Origin: Solibacillus sp. FSL R7-0682
Lineage (GTDB): Bacteria; Bacillota; Bacilli; Bacillales_A; Planococcaceae
Direction of reading: 5' to 3'
Assembly (NCBI RefSeq): GCF_038005985.1
Contig: NZ_JBBOUI010000001.1
Coordinates: 1,756,001 to 1,820,000, forward strand
Length of the DNA: 64,000 nucleotides
The number at the start of each line of letters is the position of its first letter. The first letter of the stretch is position 1. Shown here one piece after another: positions 26,910-29,820 of this stretch. Made by a program: the position numbers and the translations under genes. Below the pieces are notes generated by a model. The model did not search any database. It was given only the letters and a program-made list of their open reading frames with translations, and was not told the origin of the DNA.

Positions 26910-27449
26910 TTAGTTTGTAATGCTTGCACCATTTTCACTAAAAAACTGCATATTCTCAAGCATAGAATCGTGTAAGTTTCTTGGTACAGTATTCTTTGTT
27001 ATGTAAATATTTTTGCTACTAGGTGTAATAGGTTTGACATAAAATGAATACTTCTTTTTACTACGATTTGTAAAGGATATGGAATGTATTGGCTCAAAAA
27101 GTGGGCTTGTAAAAATAATATAGTTACCATTATTTGTTTTAAAAAGCATGCGTTGATCTTCTTGAATAGTTGGCTGAACTAGGGATAATTTTAGCTTGTC
27201 ATTTAATCGATTGCTTTTAAATAATGCAAAGCTATTCCTCTCTTCTTGTTCAAATAATACTACTGTTATGTCGGTATCAAAAAGCGATGATTTTTCGATG
27301 AGTAAAATGGGTGAATCATTTTGTAAGCGTAGCTGGATTGCAGTAAGCATTTCAGTTTCTTTGGGTAAGACTGAATAGGCTTTATACGCATTAAATGAGG
27401 CTGTAAAAATGATTAAACCGATTGCGATAAATAATAAATAATTTTTCAA
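26910..27449 (-). CDS. Membrane-anchored extracytoplasmic protein of unknown function
   Basis: 179 residues from TTG 27449, chosen because GGAGG lies 6 bases upstream; the longer frame to 27578 has no site and runs into the opposite promoter. MKNYLLFIAIGLIIFTAS is a signal anchor or signal peptide. The remaining part is beta-rich (SPILLIEKSSLFDTDITVVL, NNGNYIIFTSPLF) with a basic stretch NRSKKKYSFYV. I do not recognise a family. It is divergent from an ECF sigma gene with 147 bases between, so it may belong to the same response. Confidence 0.65.
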   Translation of the reverse strand: MKNYLLFIAIGLIIFTASFNAYKAYSVLPKETEMLTAIQLRLQNDSPILLIEKSSLFDTDITVVLFEQEERNSFALFKSNRLNDKLKLSLVQPTIQEDQRMLFKTNNGNYIIFTSPLFEPIHSISFTNRSKKKYSFYVKPITPSSKNIYITKNTVPRNLHDSMLENMQFFSENGASITN

Positions 27450-27535
27450 ATTGGACCTCCTTAAGAAAAAGATCAACTCCGTGGCGACCTCTTTAGTGAG
27501 ATTAATAGTAGTATACGCTGGAACAAAAAGAAATT

Positions 27536-27562
27536 TGAAACTATTTCCAAAGTTCGTCCGTC
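27536..27562 (+). promoter_or_regulatory. ECF-type promoter upstream of the sigma factor gene
   Basis: TGAAAC at 27536-27541 and CGTC at 27559-27562, separated by exactly 17 bases: the GAAAC-N16/17-CGTC pattern of ECF factors such as B. subtilis SigM. The start codon of the sigma gene lies 34 bases further on, so autoregulation is expected. Confidence 0.7.
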
Positions 27563-27596
27563 TATTTGGCAAGTTCATATGAAGGGAGGGGCGGAA

Positions 27597-28118
27597 GTGG
27601 ATACATATGAGCTAACCCAAATCATGCAAGAACATGGCGATTATTTAGTAAAGCTTTCTTATATTTATGTGAAAAATTGGAGTATGGCAGAGGAGATTGT
27701 ACAAGATGTTTTTGTGAAATTTTATGAAACGCATGGGCAATATGAACAGCGTGCAACATTAAAAACATATTTAGCAAAGATGACTATTAATAAAAGCTAC
27801 GATTATTTGAGAAGCGTAAAAGGACGAATGAAAATGTTACGTCAAATGTGGAACACAGCTGAGCTATCTCGTCCATCAGTTGAGCAGGAAACATTAATCA
27901 TGCTAACAAAAAATCAAATTGCCAATGAAGTCTTTAAGTTACCGCTCAAATATCGTGAAGCGGTTGTACTATATTATTATGATGAAATGACAAGTAGGGA
28001 GATCGCTGAACTGTTGGTTGTATCAGAAAATACTATAAAAACCCGTTTGAGGCGGGCGCGTGAATTGTTGAAGCCGAAGCTTATAGATTTTCAAAGTGAG
28101 GTGACAGTAGATGACTAA
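27597..28118 (+). CDS. ECF-type RNA polymerase sigma factor (SigM-like promoter class)
   Basis: 173 residues from GTG 27597, preceded by GGGAGGGG at the right distance; an ATG at 27579 lies before that site and is rejected. Region 2: LSYIYVKNWSMAEEIVQDVFVKFYE and LAKMTINKSYDYLRS. Region 4: LPLKYREAVVLYYYDEMTSRE then the HTH IAELLVVSENTIKTRLRRAREL, both canonical. The stop overlaps the next gene by 8 bases. It sits behind a promoter it probably recognises itself. Confidence 0.93.
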   Translation: MDTYELTQIMQEHGDYLVKLSYIYVKNWSMAEEIVQDVFVKFYETHGQYEQRATLKTYLAKMTINKSYDYLRSVKGRMKMLRQMWNTAELSRPSVEQETLIMLTKNQIANEVFKLPLKYREAVVLYYYDEMTSREIAELLVVSENTIKTRLRRARELLKPKLIDFQSEVTVDD

Positions 28119-29655
28119 AATAAAGCAACAACTGAAAAATGTTTTAGACAAAAGAGAGCGCTTTACAAAACAAAATGAACTGGCCGTGTTAGCTCGTATT
28201 CAAAAAGAGAAACGAACTGTTAAAATTCCATTTATTTTGATTAGCTTTGTTGCACTTACAATTCTCTTTATCGCACTCATAAGTCGTCCCAATGATCCAA
28301 TTGTTACAGCGAGTGAGGCTTCACTTTTTAACTATATAGAGCAAACAACGGGGCAAGGTGTGGAAGTACTTTATAAAGAAATGGGTGTTCAAGAAAAAAA
28401 TGATGCTATCGTCGTATATCAACTGAAAAATAATGAGCAAGTGCTTACGACAGAGTATGTACAATTTCACGATAATAAATGGCAACAAGTGCATAGTATT
28501 GATCTTCCTATACAAGCACCATACTTATGGCAATCTACAAATAGTGTACCGTATTTAACAACGGGAATTATTTTAAACAGAGATGTGAAAACAGTCATAG
28601 TAGGAGAAAAGGAAGCGCAATTAATTGAGTTAAATAAAGAATGGCTTTATTACTTTAGCTTTTCACAACAGCAAGCAAACCGTGTTGTTGTGAAGTATAG
28701 CGACGGAAATTACGAGCGTCTTCAAGGGGAGATGGAAACAGAGTCATTAAGCATACCTTATGCTTCAATGACATCGAATACACAAACCATTATTACGTAT
28801 TTATCTGATACGATGGATCAAGGGAAGCACGATTACACCGCATATCCGATCGTAGTAGATTCAAAAATTAATAAGTTACAGCGTAAAGATGTGATGTTGT
28901 ATGAAAATGTAGAAGGACAAAACATCATTAGTCGCATTATAGGCTTACCAGGAGAACGTTTAGAAATACAAAATGGTACAGTCGTTATCAATCAGATTCC
29001 GTATAATGACTATTATGGATATGCAAAAATCGGAGGAGAGCAAGTAGTTGAATCCTACATAGAAAAGGTAGGGAATGCGATTGAAAATGAAGATGCGGTA
29101 AAAGCATTATTCGATTATACGATGCCTGAAATTCTTTTAAATGATAATGAAGTATTGGTCGTCCCTGATAACTGGATGCGTGGGAAAATTGAAGTAATTT
29201 CATTGGCAAACATAAAAGGTCAGGTGCTTGGCTATGAAGCGAGCACAGTGGCAAAAAAGATTTGGACCGATAAAGAAATTCAGCTCTATAACACGTTTAA
29301 AGATCAGTACAATTCAGAAGTCTTTCGTGATGAGTCTCCTATAACCATTGCACGTGTTTATTTATACGCAAGCTTTCTTCATGATGAGCAAACTGTTTAT
29401 CGGTTGTTAACGACTCGTGAAAACTATATTGTTTGGTCAGAAGAAGAGCATATGAAACCAAAACCGGAGTTTGAAAATCAAACTGCAAGCAAACAGGCAG
29501 TCCAAAATGCGAGTTCCTTATTAACCGGAGAATTTAAAATGCTAGATGATTACAGTGGTTATATAGATTTCGTGGTAGATGATGAAAAGCAAGGCTTTCA
29601 AATGATTTTAAATGAATCGGGCATTTGGCAAGTCGCATTTATGCCGATGCAGTAA
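28111..29655 (+). CDS. Membrane protein with an inactive signal-peptidase-like domain; probable anti-sigma factor
   Basis: 514 residues. A basic cytoplasmic head of 37 residues is followed by one membrane helix (IPFILISFVALTILFIALI) and a large external part. Residues about 235-375 look like type I signal peptidase (S26): RIIGLPGERLEIQNG (box D, 275-289) and PDNWMRGKIEVIS..IKGQVLGY (box E). The catalytic lysine that normally precedes RIIGLPG is S274, and the serine of the SMxP box is replaced (TAYP, T243), so protease activity is not expected. The gene overlaps the sigma gene by 8 bases, implying a regulator of that factor. The family of the first and last thirds is unknown. Confidence 0.7.
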   Translation: MTKIKQQLKNVLDKRERFTKQNELAVLARIQKEKRTVKIPFILISFVALTILFIALISRPNDPIVTASEASLFNYIEQTTGQGVEVLYKEMGVQEKNDAIVVYQLKNNEQVLTTEYVQFHDNKWQQVHSIDLPIQAPYLWQSTNSVPYLTTGIILNRDVKTVIVGEKEAQLIELNKEWLYYFSFSQQQANRVVVKYSDGNYERLQGEMETESLSIPYASMTSNTQTIITYLSDTMDQGKHDYTAYPIVVDSKINKLQRKDVMLYENVEGQNIISRIIGLPGERLEIQNGTVVINQIPYNDYYGYAKIGGEQVVESYIEKVGNAIENEDAVKALFDYTMPEILLNDNEVLVVPDNWMRGKIEVISLANIKGQVLGYEASTVAKKIWTDKEIQLYNTFKDQYNSEVFRDESPITIARVYLYASFLHDEQTVYRLLTTRENYIVWSEEEHMKPKPEFENQTASKQAVQNASSLLTGEFKMLDDYSGYIDFVVDDEKQGFQMILNESGIWQVAFMPMQ

Positions 29656-29718
29656 TATATGATCTTTAAAGAGAATAGGAATAGGATGTTTTAAGTAGTT
29701 CCAATTCATTTATTAGAG

Positions 29719-29769
29719 GTGTTTGATTATCAGAGCAGTTACTGATGGTCAAACGCCTTTTAATTTTTA
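29719..29769 (+). terminator. Terminator after the second ECF locus
   Basis: AGGTGTTTGA pairs with TCAAACGCCT, extended by ATCAG/CTGAT, followed by TTTTAATTTTT. Confidence 0.75.
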
Positions 29770-29820
29770 ATATACGTAATAGCTAAGATCTATAAATTAG
29801 AAAATTATTGGAAATAAATG

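Follow-up and report, generated by a model that had tools for sequence, protein, structure and literature searches.

Signal-peptidase-like proteins that have lost their activity, and membrane anti-sigma factors that sense conditions outside the cell, have been described separately. SipA of Streptococcus pyogenes (PDB 4n31) is an inactive signal-peptidase-like protein with a role in pilus assembly (PMC4049620). RsiV and RsiP are membrane anti-sigma factors of extracytoplasmic function (ECF) sigma factors, and their outside part is sensory or signal-dependent (PMC4183432, PMC8844934). Here we describe a gene pair of Solibacillus sp. FSL R7-0682 in which both kinds of protein meet: an ECF sigma factor gene is followed by the gene of a presumed anti-sigma factor of 514 residues, which carries a signal-peptidase (S26) domain devoid of the catalytic dyad. 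The pair lies in a stretch of 64,000 nucleotides (NCBI RefSeq assembly GCF_038005985.1, contig NZ_JBBOUI010000001.1, positions 1,756,001 to 1,820,000), hereafter the window, which belongs to a genome of 4.06 Mb. Coordinates are those of the window, and features lie on its forward (+) strand unless otherwise stated. Our reading is that the pair is probably an autoregulated sigma/anti-sigma operon, and that the dyad-less domain forms the core of a modular sensor on the outside of the cell.

Results

The sigma gene (27579..28118, 179 residues) and the open reading frame (ORF) of the 514-residue protein (28111..29655) overlap by 8 bases, and the TAA stop codon of the former occupies 28116-28118. 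A preliminary description of this DNA had reported the overlap and the single membrane pass of the second product; the ORF coordinates and the one transmembrane stretch agree with it. The first product has regions 2 and 4 and is short, as expected for an ECF sigma factor (Pfam Sigma70_r2, 3.1e-11; Sigma70_r4_2, 2.2e-15). Its top NCBIfam model is PRK09415, sigma C, with 151 bits, below the model's cut-off of 198. GTG 27597, which is preceded by a AAGGGAGGGG box and yields 173 residues, is a likelier start than 27579. The genome harbors a large set of sigma factors, with 47 PF08281 matches above cut-off.

An ECF-type promoter motif, TGAAACTATT-N13-CGTC, is found 5' of the sigma gene at 27536..27562. 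The pattern has one match in the window against 0.01 expected. Genome-wide, its GAAACYATT form has one exact match (two in a backward control), and so does its TGAAACNNTT form (three in the control). The location of this promoter suggests autoregulation. Downstream of the 514-residue ORF lies a terminator-like hairpin (29715..29770), made of a 19-pair stem at 29715-29760 and a T-rich tail; the region contains two sites of this kind versus 1.2 expected. With a promoter on one side and a hairpin on the other, the pair looks like a closed two-gene operon.

Residues 221-376 of the second product (28771..29238) form the S26-like domain, detected by Pfam, profile, hhalign and fold matches. PF10502 matches with an E value of 6.1e-8 (33.2 bits, cut-off 22.9), and TIGR02227 matches with an E value of 2.5e-8, but its 34 bits fall short of the equivalog cut-off of 47. 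In hhalign, 13 domains of the family aligned with three real signal peptidases with a probability of 98.5 and an E value of 3e-15. The external stretches that the preliminary description had assigned to S26 boxes D and E are present as quoted, and the Pfam and hhalign scores are well beyond chance. Together with the fold matches, these scores exclude an annotation artefact or a chance motif as the source of the S26 match. Two of the checks proposed in the same description were made, one for structural similarity to S26 and one for the dyad positions in homologues. Clear fold matches to LepB and SipA were obtained in the first; in the second, none of the 42 aligned proteins and none of 85 matches collected across the order had an intact dyad.

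Assignment of the dyad positions deserves some detail. Ser274 (28930..28932) stands in box D in place of the catalytic Lys, as the preliminary description had stated; MAFFT, hhalign and the 42-protein alignment concur. The place of the catalytic Ser is ambiguous from sequence comparison alone: one MAFFT alignment with real peptidases points to H240, a candidate that was rejected, and the hhalign match omits the region. Fold matches were more informative. Using the residue numbers given for LepB and SipA in the SipA paper (PMC4049620), and reading gap-free from the first aligned residues, LepB Ser90 falls at window residues 233-236 (seven LepB chains) and at 215-217 in the family member L073, while SipA Asp48 falls at 234 and 216, respectively. 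T234 of the window protein (28810..28812) and S216 of L073 are each the first residue of a shared [TSA]-M-D-[RQ]-G motif. Hence, the dyad equivalents are T234 and S274, and not T243 and S274 as initially proposed. Column 243 is highly variable, and the fold alignments favor 234. The initial interpretation thus survives as regards a dead signal-peptidase fold outside a presumed anti-sigma factor, while its Ser position had to be moved.

With Thr and Ser at these places, the window domain has neither a Ser/Lys nor a Ser/His dyad; like SipA, it has kept the fold and lost the dyad. The same is seen in its relatives. In the 42-protein alignment the residue at the Lys position is Gly (22), Ser (9), Ala (9), Thr (1) or Ile (1), and that at the Ser position is Ala (22), Ser (12) or Thr (8). 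Across the order, the Lys position is Gly in 41 matches, Ser in 26, Ala in 12, Thr in 5 and Lys in one, and this sole Lys-bearing member, L171, carries Asp where the catalytic Ser would stand. In addition, some 160 residues separate the membrane helix (39-57) from the S26-like domain (from 221), whereas the catalytic domain of a type I signal peptidase lies close behind its membrane helix. Classifying the 514-residue protein as a signal peptidase would be wrong: the defining dyad was tested and is absent.

Two overlapping sets of relatives were used, with organisms in common. The first consists of 41 named loci collected with the pattern [DN][TAS]M[DHE][RQ]G[NKD]x[ED][YF], which occurs in 72 stretches, 31 of them not confirmed as relatives. 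The second was obtained by searching 261 genomes of the order with a profile of 13 S26-like domains. Separation was clear: 85 matches exceeded 130 bits and were counted as members, three scored 77-89, and the rest, at 60 bits or less, were presumed as a class to be real signal peptidases. Three weaker probable members (G284, G110 and G111) are not included in the 85. Of 398 genomes drawn from across the class, 20 had a match at E 1e-18, six of them outside the family of the window's organism.

Coupling to sigma genes, recognized solely by similarity to the window's sigma factor, is frequent. Across the order, 56 of the 85 members lie directly 3' of an ECF sigma gene and 29 do not; a lipobox-like pattern is found in 20 of the latter. 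Among the named loci, 25 of 41 are coupled (including L066, scored as such despite a gap of 133 bases) and 16 are uncoupled, with records from Bacillus, Paenibacillus, Tumebacillus and Ammoniphilus. One of the 29 uncoupled order-wide members, L114, shows a frame-broken sigma remnant upstream (of 1162) of an open S26-like anti-sigma gene. Two further sigma/S26-like pairs exist in the window's genome, one clear (L031, 5009-7085) and one with a far more eroded S26 part (L032, 5096-6734).

The domain has conserved residues of its own. In the 42 proteins, M235 and G238 are invariant, and D233 (40), D236 (39), R237 (37), N239 (35) and H240 (36) nearly so; since positions 233-242 were the search pattern of the named loci, these counts are partly a product of selection. 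D353 (42), W355 (42) and R357 (38) lay outside the pattern. Across the order, 75 of the 85 members have [DNP][TASN]M-x-[RQ]G, and the ten motifs missed by this pattern were read by eye. D353 and W355 are also invariant in A1, an alignment of ten rows that includes divergent paralogues.

A tree of 37 partner sigma factors, four of which (L032, L047, L048, L050) have partners with an eroded S26 part or none, splits into two groups with a long branch between them (lengths of 3.17 and 0.78 to either side of the midpoint root, support 100/100). The window's sigma factor belongs to group A, whose nearest model is sigma C; group B, the Sporosarcina group, is nearest to the SigM, SigX and SigY models. 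Each group has a conserved promoter of its own at the sigma gene. The group A promoter precedes 13 of 17 named sigma genes as well as that of the window, and has no other match in the 41 loci and the window. The exceptions are L058, L061 and L063, which have variants, and L060, where most of the upstream DNA is lacking. In 4 of the 13 genes the motif lies inside the listed ORF, so that the start has probably been called too early. The group B promoter is visible in 8/8 loci and at the right place in 14/14 genomes (9 exact, 5 with one mismatch); elsewhere in those genomes the pattern has 4 matches, against 10 for the backward control. In 20 genomes, all 20 exact matches to the group A promoter precede an ECF sigma gene; 13 belong to S26-type pairs and 7 to other sigma/anti-sigma-like pairs outside the S26 match set. 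When one mismatch is allowed, 97 matches are found versus 89 in controls.

One of these other pairs is informative. In L243 (1298-2854, the same as L214), taken to be from the same genome as L055, the N-terminus of the anti-sigma protein is 48% identical to that of L055 over 82 residues and the promoter motif is that of the S26 type, but the ectodomain is different and has no S26 domain. This is a natural ectodomain swap. The picture that emerges from such comparisons is one of fixed, putatively sigma-binding ends and exchangeable outsides. Dozens of relatives carry the same dead domain, which is attached to ECF systems of two unrelated kinds and thus looks like a reusable sensor. Both the sigma pairing in two far-apart lineages and the family-type N-terminus with another ectodomain add to the evidence for the reading first proposed.

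A near-consensus ECF promoter (TGAAACTAT..CGTC) was also seen in five Planococcus-type genomes, at the gene of a trypsin-like protease that is anchored in the membrane and has an NTF2 domain of TcaA type (L213, 1501-2907; L244-L248). Among 24 loci examined, the five closest orthologues match 9/10 and 4/4 bases. For Planococcus-type genomes alone, this hints at a link to the quality control of envelope proteins; the site could also serve other ECF sigma factors.

The remaining parts of the 514-residue protein were delimited by hydropathy, charge and structure prediction. Residues 1-37 (28111..28221), presumably cytoplasmic and sigma-binding, have two predicted helices (2-13 and 20-32). A transmembrane helix (39-57; 28225..28281) follows; no second one is found, and K/R number five in the 12 residues before it and one in the 12 after. 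Judged by hydropathy and charge, the protein would thus have one membrane helix with its N-terminus inside, as ECF anti-sigma factors do. Outside, a predicted helix with four strands, cystatin-like (63-133; 28297..28509), and a small beta domain (138-207; 28522..28731) precede the S26-like domain, and an NTF2-like domain (406-514; 29326..29652) closes the protein. NTF2-like domains of this type are also found alone, as small lipoprotein-like proteins (L041, 5504-5998; L020, 1309-1851). The position of the ORF directly 3' of the sigma gene, kept across relatives, gives the presumed anti-sigma role good support from context.

On the opposite strand, the gene of a small membrane protein (26910-27578, −) diverges from the operon and extends back into the sigma promoter region; TTG at 27447-27449, after an AAGGAGG box, looks a likelier start than the listed one. 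A Pfam scan gave no match for its product. Downstream of the operon lie genes for PadR, DUF2812 and an ABC transporter (the last one recognized by its sequence), with no evident tie to the operon. No pilin or sortase gene was found among the four neighboring genes scanned with Pfam.

Discussion

Under the model that we favor, the two-helix N-terminal segment would keep the sigma factor at the membrane. The ectodomain would act as a modular sensor, and its core, the pseudo-signal-peptidase, would bind a ligand in or near the old cleft without cutting it. The ensuing change in the ectodomain might expose the anti-sigma factor to proteolysis or release the sigma factor otherwise, and the freed sigma factor would transcribe its own operon. 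A domain that has kept its fold after losing catalysis, as SipA has, points to a binding function. The ligand might be a signal peptide or preprotein, an inhibitor, or another molecule suited to the new motif.

Several observations weigh against this model. No Pfam anti-sigma family matches the N-terminus, whose structural model is of low confidence (predicted local distance difference test scores of 53-76 in blocks of 10). The structures are predicted ones, built on a 42-row and a 29-row alignment, and the former is full length only for the window, L051, L053 and L054. Motif conservation in the named loci was partly selected for, and Ser, Ala or Thr at the second place was required by the pattern. 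In A1, the invariant part of the motif is reduced to M235, G238 and Y242; five of the 10 rows have His or Tyr at position 236, and seven lack H240. Finally, exact promoter matches elsewhere occur only before other sigma genes, with no effector gene among them, and the motif may serve other ECF sigma factors as well.

A narrower form of the model, to which we give a fairly low probability, is that the domain captures unprocessed signal peptides or preproteins and that the sigma factor answers secretion overload. The presumed cleft positions stay hydrophobic (I/L/V/M at 273, M at 235 in 42/42); from the offset of the fold matches we take them to be the equivalents of Ile144 and Met91, which line the cleft of LepB. 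SipA keeps its peptide cleft without a dyad, and a peptide is bound in one molecule of the crystal; mutation of the cleft and changes at the dead site had, on the other hand, no effect on pilus assembly (PMC4049620). A signal of this kind does exist, as AyrA/AyrR of Staphylococcus aureus monitors accumulating preproteins (PMC5727409). The promoter at the trypsin-like protease gene would fit this idea, but 19 other homologous protease loci lack an equally good site, the window's genome has no match to the protease at E 1e-25, the L246 site lies 280 bases before the listed start, the spacing in L248 is one shorter, and promoter matches with up to one mismatch are near the control level. The 160 residues between membrane helix and domain also mean that the cleft need not face the membrane, which speaks against simple binding of signal peptides at its surface. 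Extended to the family, the proposal would be that Planococcaceae and neighbors have built this domain, recognizable by D-x-M-D-R-G-N-H-D-Y and D-x-W-x-R, into lipoproteins and into ECF anti-sigma factors unrelated to one another, and that it couples transcription to the load of signal peptides or preproteins, or to the inhibition of signal peptidase; in this general form the proposal is rather doubtful.

It is also possible, though unlikely, that the S26-like domain is a structural spacer or dimerization module and that the NTF2-like or cystatin-like domain reads the signal. The related anti-sigma candidate L050 has an NTF2-like domain and no S26 match, the S26 part is far more eroded in L032, L047 and L048 (20-30 bits), and among the divergent paralogues only 5 of 10 have a Pfam S26 match and the motif residues vary. 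Nevertheless, the domain makes up nearly the whole ectodomain in L055-L063 and in other proteins of 256-289 residues, and motif residues foreign to real signal peptidases are nearly invariant in the named loci and recur in most order-wide members.

An explanation of similarly low probability, compatible with the preferred model, is that the pseudo-domain controls access to a site, just outside the membrane, at which a real signal peptidase cleaves the anti-sigma factor. Release could then resemble that of RsiV and RsiP, whose first cut, at site 1, is due to signal peptidase (PMC4183432, PMC8844934). The window protein has V65-T66-A67/S68 at the start of helix 63-80, after the membrane, and V-T-A, V-T-S or V-T-T was found by eye soon after the membrane helix in 7 of 8 proteins of the Sporosarcina group; a loose pattern is, however, unmatched in 13 of 26 proteins, including 8 of 10 of Planococcus type.

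We deem it improbable that the domain mimics a drug target and binds natural signal-peptidase inhibitors of the arylomycin type, with lipoprotein copies as decoys. Arylomycin does occupy the peptide cleft of active signal peptidase (PMC4049620), PbpP is a target-like sensor that detects beta-lactams for the ECF factor sigmaP (PMC8092216), and copies without sigma genes are common. Gene neighborhoods, however, give no link to inhibitors, as the neighbors of 17 uncoupled copies have almost nothing in common, and the conserved polar motif is not obviously suited to a lipopeptide. That the domain still cuts, by another chemistry drawn from its conserved Asp, His and Arg, is very improbable: polar residues are conserved near the old active site, but H240 is replaced in 6 of 42 proteins and in the A1 rows mentioned above, and the Lys position is never His in the 42 or the 85, which excludes the Ser-His type of signal peptidase too.

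Little is understood of how Gram-positive bacteria sense that their protein export is overloaded or blocked; the S. aureus study states that next to nothing is known on the subject (PMC5727409). An anti-sigma factor with a dead signal peptidase offers a candidate that can be tested and, if secretion stress proved to be the signal, the sensor would have been built from a dead form of the very enzyme that has failed. Irrespective of what is bound, the family looks like a case of an enzyme that has become an exchangeable sensor, used by two ECF systems unrelated to each other. There is also a consequence for annotation: signal-peptidase models match all 42 proteins, yet none can cut by the known dyad.

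Among the matches listed from the literature on anti-sigma factors and on signal peptidases or pseudo-enzymes, no title or start of an abstract describes a signal-peptidase domain as part of an anti-sigma factor; the term "signal peptidase" is absent from two ECF reviews, and appears once, in the reference list, in a third anti-sigma paper. As far as these searches go, the combination of an ECF anti-sigma factor and a SipA-like dead signal peptidase, each of a known kind, is real and undescribed. The two predicted helices within fewer than 50 residues recall those of class II anti-sigma factors, of which CnrY has two (PMC7406223). AyrRA may be a functional counterpart, as it provides a transcriptional answer to unprocessed preproteins, but it consists of a repressor and a membrane protein with six putative transmembrane domains, an anatomy unrelated to that of the window pair (PMC5727409). 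RsgI9 of Clostridium thermocellum (PDB 7sjy) is likewise an anti-sigma-like membrane protein with protease-like and NTF2-like domains outside; its protease-like domain is S1C and said to bind cellulose, whereas here it is S26, and RsgI9 is a member of the SigI/RsgI family, not ECF, and is described as an orphan without a known partner sigma factor (PMC12203970). Compared with SipA, the domain described here resides in the ectodomain of a sigma-coupled protein, with a conserved motif of its own and extra domains (PMC4049620). RsiV and RsiP, in turn, are substrates of signal peptidase (PMC4183432, PMC8844934), while the protein described here contains a dead one.
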